Source: Sinomonas mesophila
GTDB lineage: Bacteria; Actinomycetota; Actinomycetes; Actinomycetales; Micrococcaceae
DNA: 64,000 nt
Assembly (NCBI RefSeq): GCF_001999765.1
Contig: NZ_KV908328.1
Coordinates: forward strand, 84,780 to 148,779
Direction: 5' to 3'
Part shown: positions 25,725-56,819 of the stretch, one piece after another
Position numbering within the stretch: position 1 is the first letter of the stretch
Layout of the letters: every line of letters starts with the position of its first letter
Made by a program: the position numbers and the translations under genes
The notes under the pieces: generated by a model
The model's database searches: none
What the model was told of the DNA's origin: nothing
The model's input: the letters and a program-made list of their open reading frames with translations, nothing else

Positions 25725-27108
25725 ATGAACCAGATGAGGCTCTTCGCCTTCGACTTCAATGGCCCTGCACACCTCTCGGCGGGCCTGTGGAGGCACCCGG
25801 CAGACCGTGGACGCGACTACAGGTCCCTGAAGTACTGGGTGGAGTACGCCAAGATGCTCGAGGACGCGTGCTTCGACGGCATCTTCTTCGCCGACAACGT
25901 CGGCTACCACGACGTCTACAAGGGCAGCGTCGATGCCGCCCTCAAGGACGGCGCGCAGATCCCCGCGAACGACCCGGCCTACCTGATCCCGGCGATGGCC
26001 GCGGCGACCAAGCACCTGGGATTCGGCGTGACGTCGACGACGGCGTACGACCACCCCTACGCGCTCGCCCGCAAGTTCTCCACGCTGGACCACCTCACGA
26101 ACGGCCGCATCGGCTGGAACGTCGTGACCTCGTACTCGGACAGCGCCGCGAAGAACCTGGGCACCGGCGTCCAGAAGGCGCACGACGACCGCTACGAGCT
26201 CGCCGAGGAGTTCATCGAGGTCGCCCTCAAGCTCTGGGAGGCATCGTGGGAGGACGGCTCCGTCCCGGCCGACGCCGCCTCCGGCACCTACACGGACCCG
26301 ACGCGCATCCACCCGATCGGGCATCAGGGCAAGCACTTCACCGTCCCCGGCATCGCCCTGTGCGAGCCGTCCCCGCAGCGCACCCCGGTCATCTTCCAGG
26401 CCGGCGGCTCGAGCAAGGGCGTGGCCCTCGCGGCCGCCACCGCGGAGGCCGTGTTCATGAACGCGACGTCCAAGGCCGGGCTCAAGAAGCAGGTAGACAC
26501 CCTCCGCGCGAAGGCCGTCGAGGCCGGCCGCGACCCGTCGCACATCGCCGTGCTGCAGATGATCACGGTCATCACGGCGCCGACCGACGCCGAGGCCCAG
26601 GCGAAGTACGAGGAGTACAAGAGCTACGTCTCCTACGAGGGCGCCATGGCCCGCTACAGCGGCTGGGCCGGGCTCGACATGTCCGCCTTCGACCCGGACG
26701 TGCCCTTCAAGAACGTCAAGACCAACGCCGGCCAGACCATGGTCGACCTGTTCTCGAAGATGGACCCCACCAAGGAGTGGACGCCACGGGACATCGCCGA
26801 CTACATCGGCATCGGACGGCACGTCCCCCGTCATCGTGGGCAGCCCCCAGACAGTCGCCGACGAGCTCACCTCCTGGGTCAACGAGACCGGCATCAGCGG
26901 CTTCAACATCGCGCACGCGGTCAAGTACCAGGACATCAAGGACTTCGTCGACGTCGTCGTCCCCGAGCTGCAGCAGCGAGGGCTGATGCGCACGGGCTAC
27001 GACGGCTCGACCCTGCGCGAGAACCTCTTCGGCGCCGGCCAGGCCCGGCTGGCCGCTGACCATCCCGGCGCCGCCTACCGCGACGCCCTCTCAGTCAAGG
27101 CCCCGTGA
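25725..27108 (+). pseudogene. FMNH2-dependent monooxygenase (NtaA/SnaA/DszA family), frameshifted
   Basis: A luciferase-like flavin monooxygenase of about 460 residues split by one frame change. The first frame (25725 onward) carries the family N-terminus (LFAFDFNGPAHLSAGLWRHP), NGRIGWNVVTSY and VIFQAGGSSKG. At about 26811-26820 it leaves the family after YIGIG, while the +1 frame resumes exactly with GTSPVIVGSPQTVADELTSW and ends QQRGLMRTGYDGSTLRENLFG. One extra base near 26816-26817 explains this. It could be a true mutation or a sequencing error. The first frame runs to 27059 with a nonsense tail. Intact relatives oxidise small organic substrates using FMNH2 from a partner reductase. Confidence 0.85.
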
Positions 27109-27109
27109 G

Positions 27110-27268
27110 GACAGCGCCTACATGATCGTCGGCTCCGTCACCGCGATGGAGCCCGGCACCGGGGAGGCCCTCGTGTTCCGCGGAGGCACGTTCGGCGAGT
27201 TCACGCTCTGGCCCACGCCCACCCCCGCACCCGCACCCACACCCACCCAGAAAGCAGAAGACCGATGA
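27110..27268 (+). pseudogene. C-terminal remnant of a flavin reductase
   Basis: Right after the monooxygenase stop, a 52-codon open stretch reads DSAYMIVGSVTAMEPG, then ALVFRGGTFGEF, which resembles the last strands of DIM6/NtaB-type flavin reductases (D-x-x-x-VG-x-V ... LVF-x-GG). About 120 N-terminal residues carrying the flavin site are missing, and a Pro/Thr-rich tail of repeated CCCACC/CCCGCA units follows. Two-component monooxygenases need such a reductase next door, so this is best read as the remains of the partner gene after a deletion. The match is by eye. Confidence 0.55.
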
Positions 27269-27693
27269 CCATGCTGCAGACCATCACCGAGGCCTGGAGC
27301 CGCGCCTGGGGCGACGGCGACACGAGCGCCTTCGAGCGCATCACCGCCGAGGGCTACGTCCGCCACTCGAAGGGCGGCGCGGACGTGTCCCTCCCCGACG
27401 TCCTCCGCCAGGTCGAGGATTCCCACGCCGCGTTCACGGACTTCACGGTCGAGGTCCTGCACGCCGTCGAAGGCGACGACCTCATCGCCATCCACTGGCA
27501 GAGCGTCGGCACGCACACCGGGACGTTCATGGGCGTCCCGCCCACGAACCGCACGGTGACCGTCAACGGCGCGTCGTTCCTGCGCCACCGAGACGGGCTC
27601 ATCACCGAGGAATGGACCGTCTGGGACCCCCGGGAGCTCCTCTCCTCCATGAACATCTGGCATCTCGGCGAGCAGATCAGGAGGAACGCGTGA
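27265..27693 (+). CDS. SnoaL-like (NTF2-fold) protein
   Basis: A 142-residue protein with the cone-shaped NTF2/SnoaL fold pattern: an opening helix (TITEAWSRAWGDGDTSAFERI), a HSKGGADVSLPD loop and strands DDLIAIHWQSVGTHTGTFMG and HRDGLITEEWTVWD. Relatives include ester cyclases and small dehydratases or isomerases. It lies between the monooxygenase and the importer genes and overlaps the next start by 4 nt, so it is part of the same catabolic operon. The ribosome site is weak; ATG 27271 is another possible start. Confidence 0.85.
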   Translation: MTMLQTITEAWSRAWGDGDTSAFERITAEGYVRHSKGGADVSLPDVLRQVEDSHAAFTDFTVEVLHAVEGDDLIAIHWQSVGTHTGTFMGVPPTNRTVTVNGASFLRHRDGLITEEWTVWDPRELLSSMNIWHLGEQIRRNA

Positions 27694-28796
27694 GCGCCGC
27701 ACCCGTCAAGGCACCGGCAGGCGATCGCGGGGACGCCATGAACACAGAAGGCCCCTTCATCCGGGTGGACCACCTCACCAAGGTCTACAGCCTGGGCAAG
27801 TCCGCCAGGCTTGGGCTGCCGGGCAGAAGGTCCCAGGCGAAGGGGTTCACCGCCGTCGACGATGTCTCCTTCGACGTGAAGCGCGGGCAGATCTTCGTCA
27901 TCATGGGCCTGTCCGGCTCGGGGAAGTCGACCATCATCCGCATGCTGAACCGGCTCATCGACGCCAGCGACGGGTCCATCACCGTCGACGGCAGGGACGT
28001 CCGCTCACTTCCGCCCGCCCAGCTGCGCGCGTACAGGAACCAGACCATCAACATGGTCTTCCAGCACTTCGGGCTCTTCCCGCACAAGTCCCTCATCGAC
28101 AACGTCGCCTTCGGCCTCAAGGTCCGCGGCGTGGACAGGGCCACCCGGGAGGCCAAGGCCGCCGAGGCCCTGACCCTCGTGGGGCTCGGCGACCGCATCC
28201 ACGCGATGCCCGACCAGCTCAGCGGAGGCATGAAGCAGCGCGTCGGCCTCGCCCGCGCCCTGGCCACGGACGCCGAGATCCTGCTCATGGACGAGCCCTT
28301 CAGCGCCCTCGACCCACTCATCCGCAAGGACATGCAGGAACTCCTGGTCAAGCTGCAGCGCAACTTCAAGAAGACGATCGTCTTCGTCACCCACGATCTC
28401 AACGAGGCCATGTACCTCGGCGACCGGATCATGGTCATGAAGCAGGGCAGGAACGTCCAGACGGGCACCGCGCTGGACCTGCTCGAGGCGCCCGCCGACC
28501 CCTACATCGAGGAATTCGTCGCCGAGGTCGACCGCAGCAAAGTCCTCACGGCCGGGATGATCTCCAAGGATCCGGATCCGGGCATGGCCGCCGCCGCGCC
28601 GGGCGTGCCCGCACGTTCAGGACACGACGCCGTGCGCGTGTCCGAGGCCACGGTGCTGACCGAGCTGCTCCCGCTCCTGGCGGCGGGGACAGAGCGGGTC
28701 GAGGTCGTCGACGAGCACGGAACACCGGTCGGCCACGTGACCGCGGAGACGGTCCTTGCAGCCCTCGCCCCCAAGGAGTACAGCCATGCGCTTTAA
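27690..28796 (+). CDS. proV: Glycine betaine/proline-type ABC transporter ATP-binding protein
   Basis: A 368-residue ATPase of the ProV/OpuAA class. Walker A is GLSGSGKST, the signature LSGGMKQRVGLARAL, Walker [14 protein letters not shown]; the Q-loop reads MVFQHFGLFPH. The C-terminal part after about residue 270 has one degenerate CBS-like half rather than the full tandem CBS of E. coli ProV. GTG 27690 is chosen because AGGAGG sits 5 nt before it and it overlaps the upstream stop. It powers import with the following permease and binding protein. Confidence 0.93.
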   Translation: MSAAPVKAPAGDRGDAMNTEGPFIRVDHLTKVYSLGKSARLGLPGRRSQAKGFTAVDDVSFDVKRGQIFVIMGLSGSGKSTIIRMLNRLIDASDGSITVDGRDVRSLPPAQLRAYRNQTINMVFQHFGLFPHKSLIDNVAFGLKVRGVDRATREAKAAEALTLVGLGDRIHAMPDQLSGGMKQRVGLARALATDAEILLMDEPFSALDPLIRKDMQELLVKLQRNFKKTIVFVTHDLNEAMYLGDRIMVMKQGRNVQTGTALDLLEAPADPYIEEFVAEVDRSKVLTAGMISKDPDPGMAAAAPGVPARSGHDAVRVSEATVLTELLPLLAAGTERVEVVDEHGTPVGHVTAETVLAALAPKEYSHAL

Positions 28797-29685
28797 CATC
28801 GGAGACTGGTTCGCCTCGGTCATCGACTGGATGCTGGCCAATGTCGGGTGGTTCTTCGACGGCGTCGCCTGGCTCGTGAGCCAGATCGTTGGCGCCGTGG
28901 AGATCGTGCTGATCGGCCTGCATCCCTTCCTGATCATCGCCCTGCTCGCCGGCGCCGCCCTCGCCCTGACACGGAGCCTGGGCCTGACGCTCTTCTCGGC
29001 GGCGGCGTTTGCGGTCATCGTCGCCATGGGACTGTGGGTCGAGAGCATGTCCACCCTCGCCGTCGTGCTCGTGTCCGTGATGTTCTCCCTGGCCATCGGC
29101 ATCCCCCTGGGGATCTGGGCCGCGCTGAACAACACCGTGAGCGCGGTCGTGCGTCCCGTCCTCGATCTCATGCAGGCCATGCCCGTGTTCGTGTACCTCA
29201 TCCCGGCGGTCTTCTTCTTCGGCGTCGGCATGGTTCCCGGCATCGCGGCCACCATCGTGTTCGCCGTCCCCCCGGCCGTGCGCCTGACCGAGCTCGGCAT
29301 CCGCAAGCTCGACCTCGAGCTGCTCGAGGCGGCCATGGCCTTCGGAGCCAAGAAGGGCCTCATCCTCAAGGACGTCCAGCTGCCGCTGGCCTTCTCCTCG
29401 ATCATGGCCGGGGTCAACCAGGTCATCATGCTGGCCCTGTCCATGGTCGTGGTCGCAGGGCTCGTCGGAGCCGGAGGCCTCGGCGGCGTCGTCGTCCAGG
29501 GTGTGGCCCAGCTGGACACCGCCCGCGGCTTCGAAGGCGGCCTCGCCGTCGTCATCCTCGCCGTGTACCTCGACCGCGTCACGAGCGGCGCCCGCTCCCT
29601 CGGCGACGTCCTGCGCAGCCGGCGCGCCAAGAAGGAACAGCGCGCCGCGGCCGCAACCGCCCCGGTCGCCGCGGCCGCGGGCTAG
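28786..29685 (+). CDS. proW: Glycine betaine/proline-type ABC transporter permease
   Basis: A 299-residue inner-membrane permease with about seven helices. The EAA loop coupling to the ATPase is seen as ELLEAAMAFGAKKGLILKDV; LIPAVFFFGVGMVPGIAATI and ALSMVVVAGLVGAGGLG are typical of ProW/OpuAB. The ATG has AAGGAG upstream and overlaps proV by 11 nt. It forms the channel of the importer; the hydrophilic N-terminal domain of E. coli ProW is absent, as usual in Gram-positives. Confidence 0.93.
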   Translation: MRFNIGDWFASVIDWMLANVGWFFDGVAWLVSQIVGAVEIVLIGLHPFLIIALLAGAALALTRSLGLTLFSAAAFAVIVAMGLWVESMSTLAVVLVSVMFSLAIGIPLGIWAALNNTVSAVVRPVLDLMQAMPVFVYLIPAVFFFGVGMVPGIAATIVFAVPPAVRLTELGIRKLDLELLEAAMAFGAKKGLILKDVQLPLAFSSIMAGVNQVIMLALSMVVVAGLVGAGGLGGVVVQGVAQLDTARGFEGGLAVVILAVYLDRVTSGARSLGDVLRSRRAKKEQRAAAATAPVAAAAG

Positions 29686-35237: not shown

Positions 35238-36197
35238 GTGATGGCATCCCCCCTCCCCGTGCGCGACGGCGTCAACGCGACGCGCCTGCGCCTGCCCGAG
35301 CACGGCTGGGAGACGGCGCTGGACTACATGCTGCACCGCTGGGGGCACATCGACCCCGAGGGGATCCTCGCGAGGTTCGACGGCGGGGAGATCGTCGCCG
35401 CCGACGGCTCGCCGCTGCACCGCGGCACGCCTCTGGCCGAGCACACCTTCATCTGGTACTACCGCACGCTCCCCGAAGAGGAGCGGCTGCCGGTCGAGCT
35501 CGCCATCCTGCACCGGGACGAGCACGTGCTCGTCGTGGATAAGCCGCACTTCCTGCCCACGACCCCGGGCGGGACGTACATCCAGGAGTCCGCGCTCGTG
35601 CGGCTGCGCAACGCCCTGGACCTGCCGGACCTGATCCCCATGCACCGCCTCGACCGCATGACCGCCGGGGTGCTGCTGTTCTCGGTCAACCCGGCCACGC
35701 GCGGGAAGTACCAGGTCCTCTTCGAGCGGCGCGCGGTCGTCAAGGAGTACGAGTGCGTCTCCGCCGTGCCGCGTCATCCTCTGGGTGGTGCGCACGACGG
35801 CGCGGGCTTCTCCCAGCGGTTCTCCGCGCCCGTCGTCGTGCGCAACCGCATGGAGAAGCGGCGCGACTACCTGCTCGCCTCGGTCGTGGACGGCGAGCCG
35901 AACGCCGAGACGCGCGTGAGCCTCGAGCGCGTGGGCGGGCCGGCGGAGGCGCCGCGGGCGCTGTTCCGGCTCGAGCCGCACACGGGCAAGACGCACCAGC
36001 TGCGCGTGCACATGGCCGGGCTCGGGGCGGGGATCATGCACGACCCGTTCTATCCAGTGCTCCTGGACAAGGCCCCCGACGACTACGCGCGCCCGCTCCA
36101 GCTCCTCGCCCGCGGGATCCGGTACCGCGACCCGCTCACAAGGGCCGAGACCGAGTTCCGCAGCCGGCTCGGGCTCCAGGAAGCCCCGCCGGTCTGA
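35238..36197 (+). CDS. RluA-family RNA pseudouridine synthase
   Basis: A 319-residue enzyme isomerising uridine in rRNA or tRNA. The catalytic Asp is in MHRLDRMTAGVLLF; HTGKTHQLRVHMAGLG is the conserved C-terminal block. There is no separate S4 domain, although residues 15-80 resemble the short N-terminal part of RluA-type TruC/RluC relatives; the exact target base is unknown. GTG 35238 is immediately followed by ATG 35241; a TACCCT box at 35226-35231 lies 6 nt before the GTG, so the mRNA is probably leaderless. Its stop lies at the very edge of a 21-bp repeat array. Confidence 0.92.
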   Translation: MMASPLPVRDGVNATRLRLPEHGWETALDYMLHRWGHIDPEGILARFDGGEIVAADGSPLHRGTPLAEHTFIWYYRTLPEEERLPVELAILHRDEHVLVVDKPHFLPTTPGGTYIQESALVRLRNALDLPDLIPMHRLDRMTAGVLLFSVNPATRGKYQVLFERRAVVKEYECVSAVPRHPLGGAHDGAGFSQRFSAPVVVRNRMEKRRDYLLASVVDGEPNAETRVSLERVGGPAEAPRALFRLEPHTGKTHQLRVHMAGLGAGIMHDPFYPVLLDKAPDDYARPLQLLARGIRYRDPLTRAETEFRSRLGLQEAPPV

Positions 36198-36271
36198 CCC
36201 CGCGGTGCCTGCGATGCGGGGTCACCTCCCTGCGATGCGGGGTCACCTCCCGACCACCGGGGTCACCGTGG
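36196..36271 (+). repeat. 21-bp tandem repeat array, locus A
   Basis: Two exact 21-bp units (36210-36230 and 36231-36251, core GCGATGCGGGGTCACCTCCC) are flanked by a partial unit before (36196-36209) and a variant closing unit that ends GGGGTCACCGTGG (36252-36271). The array fills the gap between the pseudouridine synthase stop and the macro-domain gene. The same unit occurs at 39647-39730 and, reversed, inside a gene at 40917-41040. Confidence 0.95.
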
Positions 36272-36285
36272 CGCACACTGGTTCC

Positions 36286-36804
36286 ATGCGCATCGAGATC
36301 GTCGAAGGTGACATCACCACGCGGGCCGTGGACGCGATCGTGAACGCGGCCAACTCCTCGCTCCTGGGCGGCGGCGGCGTGGATGGCGCCATCCATCGGG
36401 CCGCAGGCCCCGAGCTGCTCGAGGCATGCCGGGAGCTGCGCCGCGCCGAGCTGCCGGACGGGCTTCCCGTGGGCGCCGCCGTCGCGACACCGGGCTTCCG
36501 GCTCCCGGCCCGCTGGGTCATCCACACGGTCGGCCCCAACTGGCACGTCGGCGAGCGCGATCCCGAGCTCCTCGCCTCGTGCTTCGCCGAGAGCCTGCGG
36601 GTCGCGCGGGAGCTCGGCGCGGCGTCCGTCGCGTTCCCCGCGATCTCGGCCGGGATCTACGGCTGGGACCGCCGGACCGTCGCGGAGACCGCCGTCGGGA
36701 CGGTCCACTCCGCCGAGCCGGGCAGCCTCGAGCTCGTCGAGTTCGTCCTCTTCGGCGCCGAGATGGCCGCTGAGTTCCGCACCGCCCTCAACGAGCTCGG
36801 CTGA
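36286..36804 (+). CDS. Macro-domain ADP-ribose hydrolase (O-acetyl-ADP-ribose deacetylase type)
   Basis: A 172-residue single macro domain of the MacroD/YmdB type. It hydrolyses O-acetyl-ADP-ribose and can remove mono-ADP-ribose from proteins (known for the family). Visible signatures are IVEGDITTRAVDAIVNAANS, LLGGGGVDGAIHRAAGPEL, WVIHTVGP and FPAISAGIYGW. ATG 36286 has no clear ribosome site; a weak CACACT box lies 6 nt upstream. The 21-bp repeat array sits directly upstream and stays open in the same frame, but it is not needed for the fold. The downstream DedA gene begins 8 bp after the stop. Confidence 0.94.
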   Translation: MRIEIVEGDITTRAVDAIVNAANSSLLGGGGVDGAIHRAAGPELLEACRELRRAELPDGLPVGAAVATPGFRLPARWVIHTVGPNWHVGERDPELLASCFAESLRVARELGAASVAFPAISAGIYGWDRRTVAETAVGTVHSAEPGSLELVEFVLFGAEMAAEFRTALNELG

Positions 36805-36812
36805 CCGCGGCC

Positions 36813-37442
36813 ATGGGACCCGACGTCGCCGCCGACCTCACGGGCCCCTGGCTGTTCGCATGGCTCCTGCCGATCATCGTCCTCGACGGCTTCCTCCCGC
36901 CCGTGCCCTCGGAGATCGCGCTGATCACAGCTGGGACCATCGCGGCCGAGGGCCGGGCCAACCCCATCCTGCTCGTGGCCGTCGCCGCCGTGGGCTCGTG
37001 GCTCTCCGACCTCGGCGTCTACCTCGTGTTCCGGCGGCGGCTCACCGGCCTGCTCGACCGCACGGGCTGGGGCCGCCGCACGCACCGGACGATCCACGAC
37101 GCCGTCGAGCGCTTCGGCAAGTCCTCGACCTACGGCGCGATCATCGGGGCCAGATTCCTCCCCGGCGGGCGGCTCGCCACGAGCGCGACGGCGGGGATCG
37201 CCGAGGTCTCCCCGCGCGGCTTCGCGGCGAGCACCGCCGTCGGCGGGGTCCTGTGGGCGGCGTGGCACGTGGGGCTGGGCTTCGTCACGGGCCATGCGAC
37301 GGGCCTTCCGTTCTGGGCGAGCGGCGCGATCGGGGCGGGGATCGGCCTCACGGTCGGCCTGTGCATCGCGGCCGTCGCGGCCGCGCGGCACCGGCGGCGC
37401 CGGGACAGCGGGCGGCCCCTCGGCAGCGAGGCCGCCGAGTAG
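36813..37442 (+). CDS. DedA-family membrane protein
   Basis: A 209-residue protein with the DedA core: VLDGFLPPVPSEIALITAG, an amphipathic segment, then GARFLPGGRLATSATAG and a long Gly/Ala-rich final helix with a basic C-terminus (RHRRRRD). It is the second DedA homologue in the window and only distantly like the first. It starts 8 bp after the macro-domain gene and is probably co-transcribed. The family maintains membrane lipid distribution; a specific role is unknown. Confidence 0.9.
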   Translation: MGPDVAADLTGPWLFAWLLPIIVLDGFLPPVPSEIALITAGTIAAEGRANPILLVAVAAVGSWLSDLGVYLVFRRRLTGLLDRTGWGRRTHRTIHDAVERFGKSSTYGAIIGARFLPGGRLATSATAGIAEVSPRGFAASTAVGGVLWAAWHVGLGFVTGHATGLPFWASGAIGAGIGLTVGLCIAAVAAARHRRRRDSGRPLGSEAAE

Positions 37443-37449
37443 CGCCGCC

Positions 37450-37755
37450 CTACACCGGCACCCACGCCCCGCGGCGCCGGCGCAGGACCTGGAGCCGCCC
37501 GGTCGTCGCGACGTCCTCGACGGCGTCCTGCATGACGAGGGCGGCGGCGCGCGCCGCGGCGAGCTCGTCGCCGTCGTTCGCGGCCTCGACGAGGTACCGC
37601 ACGGTGATCTGGGGGACGCCTTTGACGACGTCGAGCCGGTCCCCCTCCACGAGGTGCAGCGACCCGACAGCCTCCTTCGCCGCCTCCATGACCCGCTCTG
37701 GGGCGTTCCCGGGGCGAAGGCCGGTGATCTGCAGGACGGCGCGGTAGCTCGGCAT
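37450..37755 (-). CDS. Small conserved-looking cytoplasmic protein, unknown function
   Basis: A 101-residue protein starting MPSYRAVLQITGLRPG. It has a regular strand-helix pattern (ERVMEAAKEAV, RLDVVKGVPQITVRYLVEA, LAAARAAALVMQDAVEDVA) and a basic C-terminal strand (GRLQVLRRRRGAWVPV), consistent with a compact alpha/beta domain. No family is recognised. Codon use matches its neighbours, which supports it being real. It is divergent from the LysE gene with only 22 bp between the starts, so their promoters overlap. Confidence 0.7.
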   Translation of the reverse strand: MPSYRAVLQITGLRPGNAPERVMEAAKEAVGSLHLVEGDRLDVVKGVPQITVRYLVEAANDGDELAAARAAALVMQDAVEDVATTGRLQVLRRRRGAWVPV

Positions 37756-37777
37756 GGGCCCACCGTATCCTTGGACG

Positions 37778-38425
37778 GTGACCCTGACGGACTCCCTCCT
37801 TGGCTTCGCTGCGATCGCGGCACTCATCACGATCATCCCGGGGACTGACACGGCTCTCGTGCTCCGGTACACGATCAGCCAGGGCCGCCGCCACGCCTAC
37901 ACCGCCGCGCTCGGCATGATCACCGGCGCGTTCGTCTGGGGCGCGGCGGCAGCGACGGGCGTCTCGGCCCTCCTGACGGTCTCGACCGTCGCCTACGACA
38001 TCCTGCGCCTCGCCGGCGCCGCGTACATGGTGTGGCTCGGCGTGGGGCTGTGGCGCGCCTCGTTCGCGGGGGACGACGCCGACCTGCCGCCCGGGGTGCT
38101 CCCTCACCACAGCTTCGAGCCGCTGCGGCGGACGTGGGCCAAGGGCTTCGTCTCGAACCTGCTCAACCCGAAGTACGGGATGTTCTGCATCGCCGTGATC
38201 CCGCAGTTCCTCGTCCCGGACGTCCCGCCCGTGCTCATGGGCCTGGCGCTCACGGCTGTCAGCAACCTCGAGGCCATCGTGTGGTTCGCCGCGATCGTGA
38301 CCGCCGCGCAGTTCTTCTCCAAGTGGCTCAACGGGGCGCAGTTCCGGCGGTGGATCGACCGGGTCACCGGGACCGTCCTAGGGGCCTTCGGCGTCGCCGC
38401 CGTGCTCGAGCCGCGGCACGCATAG
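37778..38425 (+). CDS. LysE/RhtB-family exporter
   Basis: A 215-residue six-helix membrane protein of the LysE translocator family, which exports amino acids or related metabolites. Family marks are IIPGTDTALVLRYTISQGRRHAY near the N-terminus, LAGAAYMVWLG in the middle and GFVSNLLNPKYGMFCIAVIP. GTG 37778 is chosen because a TATCCT box (37766-37771) lies 6 nt before it, giving a leaderless mRNA. The substrate is unknown. Confidence 0.9.
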   Translation: MTLTDSLLGFAAIAALITIIPGTDTALVLRYTISQGRRHAYTAALGMITGAFVWGAAAATGVSALLTVSTVAYDILRLAGAAYMVWLGVGLWRASFAGDDADLPPGVLPHHSFEPLRRTWAKGFVSNLLNPKYGMFCIAVIPQFLVPDVPPVLMGLALTAVSNLEAIVWFAAIVTAAQFFSKWLNGAQFRRWIDRVTGTVLGAFGVAAVLEPRHA

Positions 38426-38469
38426 GCGGCCCGGGAACAGATCGGCCGGTCGGCGGGTTGGGGACCCTT

Positions 38470-38787
38470 GTGACGACTTCCCAGGACCTCGCCCCAGCCC
38501 CGAGCCAGACCGCCGCCACCCCCTCTGGTGCCTCTGGTGCCCACGCGCCGTCGAGCGCAACGAGCCCGGCCGTCCCCACTGTGCACGAGCGAGCGCTCGT
38601 GACCTGGCTCGCGATCTTCCCGCTCGTGGCGCTCGGACTGTGGGCCTTGGGGCCGCTCATGGAGGGCTGGCACCCGGTGCTGCGCGCCCTGGGGCTCACG
38701 CTGGTCGTGGTGCCGCTCGCCGTGTACGTCGTCGTCCCCAGGCTCATGGGGGCCTACCTCGGGCTGCGGGCCCGGTCGCGGAAGTAA
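38470..38787 (+). CDS. Small two-helix membrane protein, unknown function
   Basis: A 105-residue protein. The first 40 residues are Ala/Ser/Thr/Pro-rich and probably disordered in the cytoplasm. Two membrane helices follow (LVTWLAIFPLVALGLWALG and LGLTLVVVPLAVYVVVPRLM), and the protein ends in a short basic tail. Many actinobacteria have proteins of this shape, but I cannot name a family. GTG 38470 is the likely start. It lies 44 bp after the LysE gene in the same direction. Confidence 0.7.
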   Translation: MTTSQDLAPAPSQTAATPSGASGAHAPSSATSPAVPTVHERALVTWLAIFPLVALGLWALGPLMEGWHPVLRALGLTLVVVPLAVYVVVPRLMGAYLGLRARSRK

Positions 38788-38834
38788 CCCTCAGGGTCTG
38801 GGAATTCCCCCGGCCGGCGTGGCATTGTCGGTGC

Positions 38835-39641
38835 ATGACCGAGGATTCTCAGCTCGAACGCTGGCAGCGCTTCCGCGACAACCGCAACAACGCCCTCGCC
38901 GAGGAACACGGCTGGCTCTCGCTCACGTCCCTCCAATGGCTCACGCCCGAGCCCTCCCCGATGGAGTTCGTCCCGGGACTGTGGCACACGGACGAGTCCA
39001 CGGGGCTTGAGACCGCCGTGCTCACGGCCCGTGCCGATGAAGGCCTCGTCTTCGTCGAGGAGGGCGACCCCGTGGATGGGACGTTCGCCGCGCACCTGGA
39101 CAACGAGGAGTCCCTCAACTGGGTGCGGTACGGCACGATCGTCGTCGAGCTCGTGATGCGCGGCGGCTCCTACGCGATCCGCACGCGCGACTCCCAGTCG
39201 CCCACGCTCACCGAGTTCCGCGGCGTGCCGGTCTACGACTACGCCCCCGAGTGGGTCATCGAGGCCCGCTGGGAGCCGTATCCGGAACCGCGCAAGGTGC
39301 CGATCTCGACGGCGAACCCGCTGGTCGACGGCGTGCACACCTCGGCCGGGGAGGTCGTGTTCCACCGGCACGGGCACGAGTACCGGCTCCAGGCCGAGCA
39401 GGGACGGCTCAAGGACCTGACGATCACGTTCCACGACGAGACGAACGGCCAGGGCACGGACGACTGGCGCAAGGTCACGACCGCCGCACCCCGGCCGGAC
39501 GGGACGGTGATCGTGGACTTCAACCGCGCCATCAACTACCCGAGCGCGTTCACGCCCTTCGGCACGTGCCCCATGCCGGTCAAGGGGAACTCTCTGGACC
39601 TCGCCGTCGAGGCGGGGGAGAAACTCCCGAACGCGGGGTAG
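38835..39641 (+). CDS. DUF1684 family protein
   Basis: A 268-residue cytoplasmic protein with DUF1684 features: the opening WQRFRDNRNNALAEEHGWLSLTSLQWL, a central FRGVPVYDYAPEWVIEARW and the closing VDFNRAINYPSAFTPFGTCPMP. The family is widespread and uncharacterised; FNRAxNPxCAF-like blocks suggest a small-molecule or metal site. Its last codons (PNAG and the stop) lie in a degenerate unit of the 21-bp repeat array that follows, so the repeat has shaped the C-terminus. Confidence 0.88.
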   Translation: MTEDSQLERWQRFRDNRNNALAEEHGWLSLTSLQWLTPEPSPMEFVPGLWHTDESTGLETAVLTARADEGLVFVEEGDPVDGTFAAHLDNEESLNWVRYGTIVVELVMRGGSYAIRTRDSQSPTLTEFRGVPVYDYAPEWVIEARWEPYPEPRKVPISTANPLVDGVHTSAGEVVFHRHGHEYRLQAEQGRLKDLTITFHDETNGQGTDDWRKVTTAAPRPDGTVIVDFNRAINYPSAFTPFGTCPMPVKGNSLDLAVEAGEKLPNAG

Positions 39642-39730
39642 GGCCCTGCAACCCGGGGTCACCTCCCTGTGACGCGGGGTCACCTCCCTGTGACGCGGGG
39701 TCACCTCCCTGCGACGCGGGGTCACCGTGG
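39627..39730. repeat. 21-bp tandem repeat array, locus B
   Basis: Four 21-bp units occupy 39647-39667, 39668-39688, 39689-39709 and 39710-39730, with core ACGCGGGGTCACCTCCC; the second and third are identical. The last ends GGGGTCACCGTGG, exactly as at locus A. A degenerate unit (39627-39646) precedes them inside the DUF1684 gene. The SDR gene on the other strand ends within the last unit. Confidence 0.95.
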
Positions 39731-40498
39731 GGCCATGCGGATCGCGCCGTCGAGCCGGATCGTCTCACCATTGAGCATCGCGTTGTCCACGATGTGGGCG
39801 ACGAGGCCCGCATACTCCTCAGGCCGGCCGAGGCGGGACGGATGCGGGATCTGCTTGCCCAGGGACTCCTGCGCCTCGGCGGGCAGGCCGGCCATCATGG
39901 GCGTGGCGAAGATGCCCGGGGCGATGGTCACGACGCGGATGAGGTGCCGCGCGAGCTCGCGCGCGAGCGGGAGCGTCATCGCGTGCACACCGCCCTTCGA
40001 CGCCGCGTAAGCCGGCTGGCCGATCTGCCCGTCGAACGCCGCGACCGAGGCCGTGTTCACGATGACCCCGCGCTCCGGCCCGCCCAGCTCCGTCTCGACT
40101 GGGTCGGTGGCGGCGATGGCCTCGGCCGCGAGCCGGACGACGTTGAACGTGCCGAGGAGGTTGACCCGGATGACGCGCTCGAACTGCTCGAGCGCGAGCA
40201 CGCCCTCGCGCCCGAGGACCTTGCCCGGCGTCGCGATCCCCGCGCAGTTCACGACGACGCGCAGCGGCCCGAGCTGACTCGCGCGCGCGACGGCGGCACG
40301 CACCTGCTCCTCGTCCGTCACGTCGGCGGGGGCGAACGCCGCCCGCTCGCCGAGCTCGGCGGCCAGCTCGGCCCCAGCACTTCCCGGGAGGTCGGCAATC
40401 ACGACCGCCGCCCCGCCTGCATGCAGGCGCCGCACCGTCGCCGCCCCCAGCCCCGAGGCGCCGCCCGTGACGAGCGCCGTCGTTCCCTGAAGCTCCAT
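39722..40498 (-). CDS. Short-chain dehydrogenase (3-hydroxyacyl-CoA dehydrogenase type)
   Basis: A 258-residue SDR. The NAD-binding motif is [11 protein letters not shown], followed by VVNCAGIA; the catalytic triad is Ser in [10 protein letters not shown] and YxxxK in [12 protein letters not shown]. The [12 protein letters not shown] and [10 protein letters not shown] blocks are characteristic of the HSD10/type-2 3-hydroxyacyl-CoA dehydrogenase group, so a role in fatty-acid or branched-chain acyl-CoA oxidation is likely. Its stop codon (39722-39724) is supplied by the 21-bp repeat array. An 18-bp palindrome upstream suggests control by a TetR-type repressor. Confidence 0.92.
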
Positions 40499-40510
40499 CG
40501 CTCCCCCTTG

Positions 40511-40528
40511 AGTTAATCATCGCTAACT
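40511..40528. promoter_or_regulatory. TetR-like operator palindrome upstream of the SDR gene
   Basis: AGTTAATCATCGCTAACT is an inverted repeat with 7 of 9 half-site positions paired and arms AGTTA/TAACT. It lies 12 bp upstream of the SDR start, where a repressor would block transcription. The regulator is not encoded nearby. AT content here is well above the surroundings. Confidence 0.5.
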
Positions 40529-40688
40529 GGGGCCATCCTAGCCAGCCGCGTGAGGTCCGTCACGAGGACGGCAGAAGCGAGCGCGGGCGAAGCTGCACAC
40601 GTCACGCCGGAAACAGGTCCGATTCACCCTCAGGCGCACCTGAGTTATGCAGTTTCACACGCGATCGAGGCCATCTAGGCTGACGGGC

Positions 40689-41996
40689 ATGGACGAGTCG
40701 CCCGGACTCCCGACGAGCGCAGCGGAGTGGGCCCGGCGCGCGCAGGCCGCGGCGGACAGCGTCAACGTCGGCTACGGACACCGATTGCTCGGCTTCGTCC
40801 CGGGCACGTGGCTCGCCCGGACGGCCAGGCCGGCCCCGGCCGGAGGCGGTCCGTGGCACTACTGGTGGCAGGCGCACTACCTCGACTGCCTCGTCGATGC
40901 CGCGTGGCGCCGGCTCGGTGACCCCGCATCGCAGGGACGTGACCCCGCAATGTTGGGAGGTGACCCCGCAACGTTGGGAGGTGACCCCGCATCGCAGGGA
41001 CGTGACCCCGCAATGTTGGGAGGTGACCCCGCAACGTTGGCCCTCGCCCCCCGGCTCCTGCGCACCATCCGCCTGCGCAACGCGTTCCGCTTCGAGAACG
41101 ACTACTACGACGACATGGCCTGGCTCGCCCTCGCCGCGGGCCGCGCCGAGGCGCTCATCCAGCGCCTCCGCCGCCGCGGCCTGCGCGGTGCCCGCACGGC
41201 CGCCCGCGTCCTGGGCCGACAGCTCGCCTCCGCCGACACCGCCGAGCTCGGCGGCGGGCTCTTCTGGAACACCCGGCGAGACTTCAAGAACGCCCCAGCG
41301 ACGGCCCCCGCCGCGCTCTTCTTCGCGCGCACCGGTAAGCGGGAGCGCGCCCAGCGGCTCGTCGACTGGCTCGGGGCGCGGCTCTTCGATCCAGACCTGG
41401 GCCTCTACCTCGACGGCCTGCGCATCGGCCCCGGCGACACGGCCGAGCTCGTCACGGACGTCTGGACCTACAACCAGGGCCCCGTGCTCGGCGCCCTCCT
41501 CGAGCTCGGGGGCGAGGCGAACCTCGCCCGCGCCGAGGCACTCATCGCCGCCGTCGGGCGCGGGCTCACCACCGAGGTAGGGATTCCCGGCGAGCACGGC
41601 GGCGCGGCGACGGGCGGCGCGGAGGTGCCGGGCGGCGTCGTGCGGGCCCTCCAGGCCAACGGCGACGGCGACGGCGGGCTCTTCATGGGCATCCTCGCCC
41701 GCTACCTCACGGCCGCCGCGGTGCATGGCCGGCTCCCGGCGACGGCGCGAGCGGAGGCCTCGCGGCTCGTCGTGGACACGGCCGAGGCGCTGTGGGCCGG
41801 GGCCGAGGAGCGGCGGGACGGCACAGGGCGTCAGCTCCTCACCTTCCCGATGCATCCCGGCCAGCCGGCGTCAACGGCCTACCCGCCGAGCGCGAGGGTC
41901 GAGCTGTCCACGCAGCTGCAGGCCTGGATGGTGATCGAGTTCGCGCACCAGCTCACCCGCGCCCCCGGGGAAGCCGAGAAGGAGGCCGAGAAATAG
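40689..41996 (+). CDS. GH76-family glycosidase with in-frame repeat insertion
   Basis: A 435-residue alpha/alpha-barrel protein of glycoside hydrolase family 76 (endo-alpha-1,6-mannanase-like). The catalytic Asp pair is in NDYYDDMAWL; GGLFWNTRRDFKNAPATAPAAL, DVWTYNQGPVLGAL and the C-terminal ARVELSTQLQAWMVIEF are typical. No signal peptide is seen, so it acts inside the cell or on imported glycans. ATG 40689 is chosen because a TAGGCT box (40676-40681) lies 7 nt before it. Residues about 77-118 are six heptapeptides of the form [GR]DPA[SMT][QL]G encoded by the 21-bp repeat, inserted before the first catalytic region. Confidence 0.88.
   Translation: MDESPGLPTSAAEWARRAQAAADSVNVGYGHRLLGFVPGTWLARTARPAPAGGGPWHYWWQAHYLDCLVDAAWRRLGDPASQGRDPAMLGGDPATLGGDPASQGRDPAMLGGDPATLALAPRLLRTIRLRNAFRFENDYYDDMAWLALAAGRAEALIQRLRRRGLRGARTAARVLGRQLASADTAELGGGLFWNTRRDFKNAPATAPAALFFARTGKRERAQRLVDWLGARLFDPDLGLYLDGLRIGPGDTAELVTDVWTYNQGPVLGALLELGGEANLARAEALIAAVGRGLTTEVGIPGEHGGAATGGAEVPGGVVRALQANGDGDGGLFMGILARYLTAAAVHGRLPATARAEASRLVVDTAEALWAGAEERRDGTGRQLLTFPMHPGQPASTAYPPSARVELSTQLQAWMVIEFAHQLTRAPGEAEKEAEK
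40917..41040. repeat. 21-bp tandem repeat array, locus C (inside the GH76 gene)
   Basis: Six units of 21 bp (the last two bases short) run 40917-41040 in the orientation opposite to loci A and B. They form a 63-bp super-unit of three variants repeated twice. Units 1 and 4 (GGTGACCCCGCATCGCAGGG and one base) are the exact reverse complement of locus A units. The array is in phase with the gene, adding 42 residues without a stop. Confidence 0.96.
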
Positions 41997-52737: not shown

Positions 52738-53937
52738 ATGCAGCACCCAGGACCGCACGAGACGCACGGAGCCGCCGAGTTCCACGAGATCGACGCCCAT
52801 GAGCTGCGGCCGGGGCAGCGCCTTCTCCTGCCCGACGGGGCTGACAGCGCGGAGATCCTCGAAGTCGACACGGTCCTGGACGACTACGACCGGCCCGCCC
52901 TGTACTTCGTGGTCTTGGACAACCACGCGAACCTGCGGGTCGCCCACGGCACGCGGGCGAAGGTATCCCGGGGCAAGGCGCCGCGGCCGGCGGACCTGCT
53001 CTTCTCTGGCCCCACCGCCGAGATGGGGTCCCCGGACCGCGAAATGGGGTCCCCGGACACCGAGATGGGGTCCCAGGACGCCGAGATCGGGTCCGCGGCG
53101 CACGACGCCGGCCGCCCGCCGTCGTCGTTCGACCCACCGGCGGAGGCTGCCGCCCCGCTCGACCCCGCCGCCGCGCCCGACCCCACCCTCGCCGACCCCG
53201 CGGGCATCCCCACCCGGCCCCTGCTCCCGCCCCGCGGCCCGTCCGAGATCACGCTCGACACGGGGGACGTTGTCGTCGTCCCGGGCGCGGCGCCCCCGCG
53301 CGGCGGCGGCCCGAGCCCGGAGCTCCTCGCCCGGATCCCGGCCCGCGAGGAGAAGCCCGAGGACCTCATGCGGCGGCTCGACGCCGCGCACCCAGGCCGG
53401 CACACGGTCCACGAGCTCGCCGAGCGCCTCGCGCGGGGGATCAACGTCAAGTCCGGCGCGTGCCTGGCGAACCTGAGGGAGCTCGCCTACGAGCTCTACA
53501 TCGGCCAGCGCGACGCGGACGGCGCTCTCGCCGTCGCAGACCTCCTCGCCGTCCTGCCCTACGACGGAAACCCGGGCCGCTGGGCCTCCATCGAGTCGGC
53601 CCTCGGCCTGGCAGCACACCTCGCGCGCGAGCGCGGCGAGACCAACCGGGCGGACGCCTACGGGGAGCTGCTCAGGGCCCCCGAGACCGCGGAGACGGAC
53701 CCGTTCCGGGCCCGCATGGCCGAGCGCGTGCGCCAGCGCGCCCTCAACGAGCCGAACCTCTACGACAAGGAGGTCTCCCGCGCGGTCGAGACCAAGGACC
53801 ACAGCGAGGAGCGCGGCTGGCGCATGCTCCGCCTCGGCGCGCTCCTGCACCTGCGCGCGCACGGCGGCTCCGAGTCGCTCGCCCAGGACGAGCTGGACCG
53901 GCGGATCGAGGTCGAGCTCGACGCCGTGCGGGCCTGA
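52738..53937 (+). CDS. Unknown protein with internal 7-residue repeats
   Basis: A 399-residue soluble protein. Residues 1-90 look like a small beta domain (QRLLLPDGADSAEILEVDTV, DRPALYFVVLDNHANLRVAHG). Residues 95-122 are heptad units EMGSPD[RT], encoded by a 21-bp DNA repeat. A Pro/Ala-rich linker follows (to about 190). The C-terminal half is all helical (EKPEDLMRRLDAAHPG, CLANLRELAYELYIGQRDADG, ASIESALGLAAHLARERGETNRADAY, LRRGALLHLRAH-like), resembling TPR-like helical repeats. I recognise no family. TAGGCT 42 bp upstream (52694-52699) and GGAGGA before the ATG support the start. Confidence 0.75.
   Translation: MQHPGPHETHGAAEFHEIDAHELRPGQRLLLPDGADSAEILEVDTVLDDYDRPALYFVVLDNHANLRVAHGTRAKVSRGKAPRPADLLFSGPTAEMGSPDREMGSPDTEMGSQDAEIGSAAHDAGRPPSSFDPPAEAAAPLDPAAAPDPTLADPAGIPTRPLLPPRGPSEITLDTGDVVVVPGAAPPRGGGPSPELLARIPAREEKPEDLMRRLDAAHPGRHTVHELAERLARGINVKSGACLANLRELAYELYIGQRDADGALAVADLLAVLPYDGNPGRWASIESALGLAAHLARERGETNRADAYGELLRAPETAETDPFRARMAERVRQRALNEPNLYDKEVSRAVETKDHSEERGWRMLRLGALLHLRAHGGSESLAQDELDRRIEVELDAVRA
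53020..53103 (+). repeat. 21-bp in-frame tandem repeat, second family
   Basis: Units at 53020-53040, 53041-53061 and 53062-53082 share GA[GA]ATGGGGTCCC; a decayed fourth (GAGATCGGGTCC) follows to 53103. They encode EMGSPD-type heptads in a linker between two domains of the unknown protein. Unit length equals that of the 36-41 kb family, but the sequences align only around GATG-GGGTC. Confidence 0.9.
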
Positions 53938-53950
53938 GACGGGAGCCTTC

Positions 53951-56819
<2,869 letters not shown>

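Follow-up and report, generated by a model that had tools for sequence, protein, structure and literature searches.

A 64,000-nucleotide stretch of the Sinomonas mesophila genome (NCBI RefSeq assembly GCF_001999765.1, contig NZ_KV908328.1, positions 84,780 to 148,779; hereafter the window) carries three short arrays of a 21-bp repeat, loci A, B, and C, which belong to a family of interspersed arrays with at least about 70 places in this one species. The family is dispersed through the genome; its arrays have a fixed outer tip and a fading inner side, form inverted pairs, share centres, stand behind stop codons, and gain and lose whole units. Our best explanation, held tentatively although it may well be right, is that loci A to C are single arms of a non-autonomous palindromic interspersed family, similar to foldback elements or miniature inverted-repeat transposable elements (MITEs), which would descend from decayed transposon ends whose arms were lengthened by slippage. 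Judging from sequence matches, the family appears confined to Sinomonas among the genomes searched, and no published account of it was found in the open-access literature searched.

The initial annotation of this DNA had described 21-bp tandem arrays at three sites and in both orientations, a description borne out by Tandem Repeats Finder and by direct reading. The program's 21-bp calls were 36208-36251 for locus A (2.1 copies, 100%), 39654-39726 for B (3.5 copies, 98%), and 40917-41040 for C (5.9 copies, 83%). The unit counts given earlier hold for B (four) and C (six), but locus A also has a third, degenerate unit that reaches 36271. Units 1 and 4 of locus C are the exact reverse complement of the locus A units, and the string GGGGTCACCGTGG is common to the ends of loci A and B; both statements had been made before and agree with direct reading. 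Matches to TGCGGGGTCACCTCC with up to three mismatches number 15 in the window against a mean of 6.6 in shuffled sequence (0 of 100 shuffles reach 15), and 11 of them fall in the three loci. The 7-mer GGTNACC, which had been singled out, is indeed a palindrome in the units, the only one by reading, the 21-bp unit itself not being palindromic, but it is not the constant part, and relatives have GGGGTCTCTGG and GGGGTCCCGTCC in its place. Locus C requires a correction, as it lies within a glycosyl hydrolase family 76 (GH76) gene and not between genes; its translation is a 7-residue repeat, GDPATLG-like. The locus is also a perfect 63-bp doubling (Tandem Repeats Finder, 2.0 copies, 100%), its six units being a three-unit block present twice, a recent local duplication.

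The wider search covered 15 Sinomonas genomes (G000 to G014), with G000 being the genome of the window (4,008,197 bases, 47 contigs). A degenerate 19-mer with up to two mismatches matched G000 95 times in forward and 126 times in reverse orientation (221 in total), whereas its reversed control matched 7 and 9 times (16), and a 17-mer with up to one mismatch gave 159 matches against 0 for the control. The same 17-mer returned 45 matches in G011, 32 in G010, and 0-10 in the others; it was found in 8 of the 15 genomes, but the single hits in G001 and G004 were not above their control. The GTCACCTCC pair with spacers of 10-14 occurred in 8 of 15 Sinomonas genomes versus 1 of 230 other genomes of the same bacterial family (a single hit), and the TGCGGGGTC pair in all five Sinomonas genomes drawn versus 2 of 115 others, with one hit each and a control hit as well in one of the two. 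Across 396 genomes of the order, the GGGTCACCT pair was present in three, two of which are Sinomonas and the third of which has a single hit. Two exact joined units were seen on one contig, from Sinomonas sp. ASV486, among the named genomes scanned, a set outside which G000 possibly lies; plasmids and phages searched for the repeat gave no match. The genome-wide search proposed in the initial annotation yields more than 100 units on both strands and many contigs, with related units in other Sinomonas, and the repeat is not limited to three loci arising from one local duplication, since duplication explains the doubling in locus C and not the family. The suggestion of a spreading family is supported by this dispersal in the genome and the genus, but its mechanism is something we infer, and no recent jump was seen.

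Array anatomy was read in 86 G000 arrays, a sample of the listed matches. Each unit opens at its outward end with the box G(A/T)TG(C/A)GGGGTC, the most constant part across the genus; beyond the box, unit sequence and period (about 19-22 bp) vary between species. The outer end of the array is sharp at the junction of GATGC and GGGG, whereas on the inner side the pattern dissolves within one to two units. Ahead of GGGG, the bases at -5 to -1 are G, A, T, G, and C in 70, 70, 67, 67, and 92% of arrays, and from -7 outward only a C-rich composition is left. The flanks outside the tips are likewise C-rich (on the left, C 0.45-0.51 and G 0.21-0.25, compared with C 0.41 and G 0.37 behind stops in array-free convergent gaps). 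Arms reach up to 8 units, neighbouring units within an array often have the same spacer by eye, and some arrays are arms of a palindromic element composed of an arm, a short central palindrome, and an inverted arm. When arms more than 150 bp apart were treated as separate clusters, the 70 G000 clusters examined (71 minus one duplicate, a sample of the listed places) comprised 27 plus-only, 27 minus-only, 13 plus then minus, and 3 minus then plus.

Two types of centre were recognized by reading: about 12 G000 places have type I (GGGGTCAATGTC-NN-GACATTGACCCC-like), and 8 aligned places in G010 and G011 have type II (GTCTCTA...TAGAGAC, GTCACGTCTCTA...TAGAGACGTGAC-like). With E up to 0.01, the type II model detected 12 G011 places, and it also matched places that were not among its members in G000 (C6:111630, 48.6 bits), G005 (47.5 bits), and G006 (42.7 bits), with weaker matches elsewhere. 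The type I model revealed one further copy in G000 (C20:41855, 63.4 bits) and also matched G001 (42.2 bits, a non-member), where an intact centre of this type lies between arms of a quite different 22-bp unit. Centres thus occur in several species with different arms and are therefore shared across species while the arms differ. The centre model used, R3, had its structure set by hand; the RNAalifold structure of R1 had departed from the palindrome. Because R3 includes one arm unit, many of its weaker matches are arms and not centres (e.g., 77 in G011 and 62 in G010). Matches to R2 were weak (up to 32.7 bits) in G012 (9) and G009 (2) and lay at 30-36 bits in G002 (2), G003 (2), and G004 (1). 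Rfam gave 0 matches at the gathering threshold over 7 loci (25246 bases). A further subfamily may be represented at L228 and at G011:C1:236977-237127, where palindromic arrays repeat GTCA(C/T) units about every 14 bp.

Across species, arm sequence and period differ while sites persist. Site A holds six units in G010 and seven in G011 of a 22-bp, CGTTGCGGGGTCCCTGGCAGAC-like repeat belonging to another subfamily, two units in G006, and one unit-like stretch in G009; G007 has a different gene there, and no array was seen by eye in G001-G005, G008, or G012-G014. At site B, behind the DUF1684 gene, five genomes (G005, G006, G009, G010, and G011) have other units of 19-22 bp. G014 has other repeats there and G007 a different hairpin, while G004, G008, and G013 lack an array (the gap was unread in G001 and G012). 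Site C corresponds to a variable loop of the GH76 protein, in which related 21-22 bp units were found by eye in G006, G010, and G011. Units measure 22 bp in G002 and G003 (21 at one G003 place), consist of GTTGCGGGGTCYCTGGC plus five free bases in G004 and at most G005 places, and are 19-20 bp long at other G005 places. In a comparison of G000 with G011, whose proteins are on average 77.8% identical (70 reciprocal best hits), G011 also has arrays at some of the G000 sites but is empty at others, such as C3:211756, where its gap is 78 bp long and lacks an array. A 160 kb block, picked for known arrays and then counted gap by gap, gave in the automatic count of 61 intervals 2 shared arrays, 4 only in G011, and 4 only in G000 (p 0.10), but reading by eye found at least five shared places, because gene-call edges had hidden some from the automatic count.

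The close pair G010 and G011, about 96-99% identical at the compared loci, exhibited change in whole units. For 26 of the 28 G010 loci fetched, a fetched G011 locus matched, the remaining two being L140, itself fetched as a presumed partner position, and L134, which lay outside the partner search. Among 19 aligned pairs, nine differed by exact multiples of 21 bp (three of these, L133, L151, and L155, also have larger insertions), six differed in length by less than 8 bp or not at all, and four differed otherwise. Over 25 pairs, divergence was about 3.3% in the units versus 1.3% in the rest of the aligned DNA, which is mostly coding. Selection on the core was not detected (changes at 42 of 1439 core versus 42 of 1085 spacer positions, p 0.22); at the TCA positions, 3 of 360 cells were changed, a post hoc figure uncorrected for multiple looks. 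The two species share sites and differ by unit number, so no recent jump is seen. At L107 (G011:C1:990700-994000), an element that is uninterrupted in G010 is split by an insertion of ~1.1 kb, whose transposase-like frame is IS30-like by eye. The two species also differ by one unit in another 21-bp tandem repeat, CTGGGGAGGAGCGCGCAAGTC, found at L154 and L096.

The position of the arrays relative to genes bears on the main rival explanation, in which the arrays are selected 3'-end elements of the host, hairpins or protein-binding arrays that stop read-through into a convergent neighbour or protect mRNA 3' ends; we regard this as possible, although on the improbable side. Gene contexts came from our own codon-usage gene caller, which misses some small genes, so a few contexts are wrong. 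The 70 clusters lie in 35 convergent, 17 tandem, and 9 divergent gaps, with 6 inside genes and 3 at an edge, and for comparison 11 of 60 gaps in the window are convergent. In the 160 kb block, an array was present in 5 of 29 convergent versus 4 of 118 other gaps (Fisher p 0.015). Over the 77 stop-to-array distances of no more than 100 bp, the median is 16 bp, and the box strand agrees with the direction of the neighbouring transcript in 44 of 65 cases (p 0.006). These figures speak for a function at gene ends, as does the occupation of the same sites in species at about 78% protein identity, and arrays that act there would add a new type of 3'-end element to those of high-GC bacteria. However, the 27 plus-only and 27 minus-only clusters lack a second arm within 150 bp and hence form no compact long hairpin, covariation in the centre hairpins is not above shuffles (a result that neither proves nor excludes RNA function), and the core does not evolve significantly slower than the spacer. 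Several orthologous gaps are without any array, and the location could equally reflect tolerance.

The other alternatives are far less probable. If GC-rich seeds at gene ends had been expanded independently by local slippage, with no copying between loci, unit number would change as it does, in slippage-like steps, and the doubling in locus C and the recurring spacers of neighbouring units would find a ready explanation; a common box and a constant tip phase across 86 arrays, the 221 against 16 matches, and the centres shared at many sites are nevertheless hard to obtain independently. Slippage as a full account is thus very unlikely and already contradicted for the family as a whole, holding only for the growth of existing arrays. 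The iteron-like or regulator-binding array put forward in the initial annotation draws on the constant box and on a tandem period close to two helical turns, but we find it highly improbable given about 70 clusters that stand mostly behind stop codons, half of them between convergent genes. None of the five scanned neighbours of loci A to C (pseudouridine synthase, macro domain, DUF1684, short-chain dehydrogenase, GH76) is a replication gene, and the helical-turn argument is weakened by periods of 19-22 bp in other species (22 bp in G002 and G003, 19-20 bp at some G005 places). A RAYT-driven REP/BIME/REPIN family would match the alternating orientation and the position of the arrays behind genes and in convergent gaps, features that have been described for REPs (PMC3733652). 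It is nonetheless extremely unlikely and was rejected because Y1_Tnp (PF01797) is absent from all 15 Sinomonas genomes (the control was positive in 5 of 14 genomes); the unit, moreover, is not a palindrome of 20-40 bp. An anti-Shine-Dalgarno idea had been built on TCACCTCC in the unit, which we take to equal the 16S rRNA tail, and was dropped because units in G001, G004, and G005 lack TCACCTCC.

Under the reading that we prefer, decayed transposon ends, a trans-acting DDE recombinase that binds the box would have copied the elements to new places, much as IstA, TnsB, and MuA bind several end repeats. Each unit would be a potential end, the arms would later have lengthened and shortened by replication slippage, the element would have been tolerated where it is least harmful, behind genes, and the mobilizer may have been lost or may be unrecognized. 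According to one structural study, several direct repeats per transposon end, inverted at the other end, mark the IstA/TnsB/MuA group, IstA of IS5376 requires two complete direct repeats per end spaced 23 bp apart, and the target duplication is 5 bp for the IS21 member studied (PMC10122671). The layout of inverted arms with sharp tips fits repeated candidate transposase sites of ~20-23 bp at both ends, and three of nine Sinomonas IS21 loci read (L158, L159, and L162) have tandem repeats of about 22-24 bp that are inverted at the other end.

Other results weigh against this reading. The same test detected no tandem inverted ends at the other six IS21 loci, the PF01695 and PF09299 proteins examined revealed no autonomous element carrying ends like those of the arrays, and G000 has no full-length IstB match. 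G010 and G011 have arrays but no Mu-transpos_C match; conversely, G001, G005, G009, G012, and G014 have a Mu-transpos_C protein but few or no GTCACCTCC arrays, and G014 has 31 IstB-model matches (25 with E below 1e-14) but no arrays by the same patterns. The one Tni module of G000, described below, has no box in the roughly 6 kb upstream of it or in the 4 kb that follow. Thirty inverted pairs gave no signal of a target duplication (best z 2.4 of 60 tests), although old insertions could have lost it, and among the sites compared no array was present in one of the close species and wholly absent in the other. The covariation result for the centre hairpins points the same way. Hairpins in the flanks as a target gave only a weak signal (z -2.2 for plus-minus pairs, -1.3 overall).

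Candidate drivers were also considered. The IS21 ends in G014 and G007 differ in sequence from the arrays, and IS21 was rejected as a present-day driver, as IstB copies do not track array counts; 12 of the IstB-model matches of G014 score identically, indicating a recent IS21 expansion. In G000, L255:6040-9637 (C11, about 26039-29636) encodes, by Pfam, a TniA-like protein (Mu-transpos_C with a below-cut-off rve) paired with TniB, followed by a TniQ-like frame (by eye), possibly a Tn5053/Tn7-like transposition module. As a driver it was rejected, being absent (PF09299) from the array-holding G010 and G011 and without a box nearby.

The three arrays and their neighbouring genes are listed in Table 1. 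Locus A starts 12 bp past the stop codon of the pseudouridine synthase gene, with the macro-domain gene just downstream.

Table 1. Arrays and adjacent genes, in window coordinates.
Feature	Position	Strand	Description
Locus A	36210..36271	+	Two perfect 21-bp units, then one degenerate unit ending at 36271
Locus B	39647..39730	+	Four units; fills the gap that separates DUF1684 from the convergent short-chain dehydrogenase gene
Locus C	40917..41040	-	Six units, in frame within the GH76 gene
RNA pseudouridylate synthase gene	35238..36197	+	Pfam PF00849; stop precedes locus A
Macro-domain gene	36286..36804	+	Pfam PF01661; downstream of locus A
DUF1684 gene	38838..39641	+	Pfam PF07920; convergent partner at locus B
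Short-chain dehydrogenase gene	39722..40498	-	Pfam PF00106; convergent partner at locus B
Glycosyl hydrolase family 76 gene	40689..41996	+	Pfam PF03663, best stretch residues 136-379, behind the repeat; contains locus C

Elsewhere in the window, positions 53018-53098 carry an apparently coding 21-bp tandem repeat (GAGATGGGGTCCCCGGACC-like, 3.9 copies) whose ATGGGGTC resembles the box, and positions 55094-55269 a 15/30/45-bp tandem repeat (CTGGGCCGGC...) unrelated in sequence to the 21-bp family. At L165-L168, small single genes (by eye NUDIX-like, glyoxalase-like, release-factor-like, and TetR-like) stand between inverted arrays, with the upstream array close to the gene start. Arrays as flanks of cargo cassettes were considered for these loci and rejected on the strength of L165, where the orthologous loci of G010 and G011 also have units on both sides, which suggests ordinary neighbours.

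To our knowledge, bacterial interspersed repeats whose spread has been explained are mostly tied to Y1 transposases or known insertion sequences. Rickettsia palindromic elements insert in frame within genes, and locus C, in frame within the GH76 gene, is similar, but such intragenic cases are a minority in Sinomonas (6 of 70 clusters). Those elements are named in a source that describes REPs as short intergenic repeats found in both orientations, in opposite pairs, behind genes, and sometimes inside genes (PMC3733652). The Sinomonas repeats share with the REP/BIME/REPIN group their shortness, both orientations, opposite pairs, and an extragenic, preferentially downstream location that includes gaps between convergent genes (35 of 70 clusters); unlike that group, they have a non-palindromic unit and arms that are tandem arrays of varying length, and their 15 genomes hold no RAYT. 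IS21, Tn7/Tn5053, and Mu-type ends, together with the MITEs derived from them, offer a closer parallel in having several direct repeats per end, inverted at the opposite end, a plan to which the sharp outer boundary seen here corresponds. The Sinomonas elements differ from these in having no transposase gene between the arms, no autonomous relative found with matching ends, no detectable target duplication, and arms of up to 8 units. Should the arms be transposon ends, the family would show how end repeats evolve and expand after loss of the gene between them. A more specific version, which we consider doubtful, is a bacterial counterpart of foldback elements with expandable end arrays, in which every 21-22 bp unit would be a usable end for a DDE recombinase acting in trans and fast, species-specific arms would surround slowly changing centres; the arms might then record a race between the binding box of the recombinase and the element. 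Foldback elements of eukaryotes consist of inverted arms of short tandem repeats around a small centre. The Sinomonas elements, although bacterial, compact (up to a few hundred bp), and of no known relation to them, are built on the same plan.

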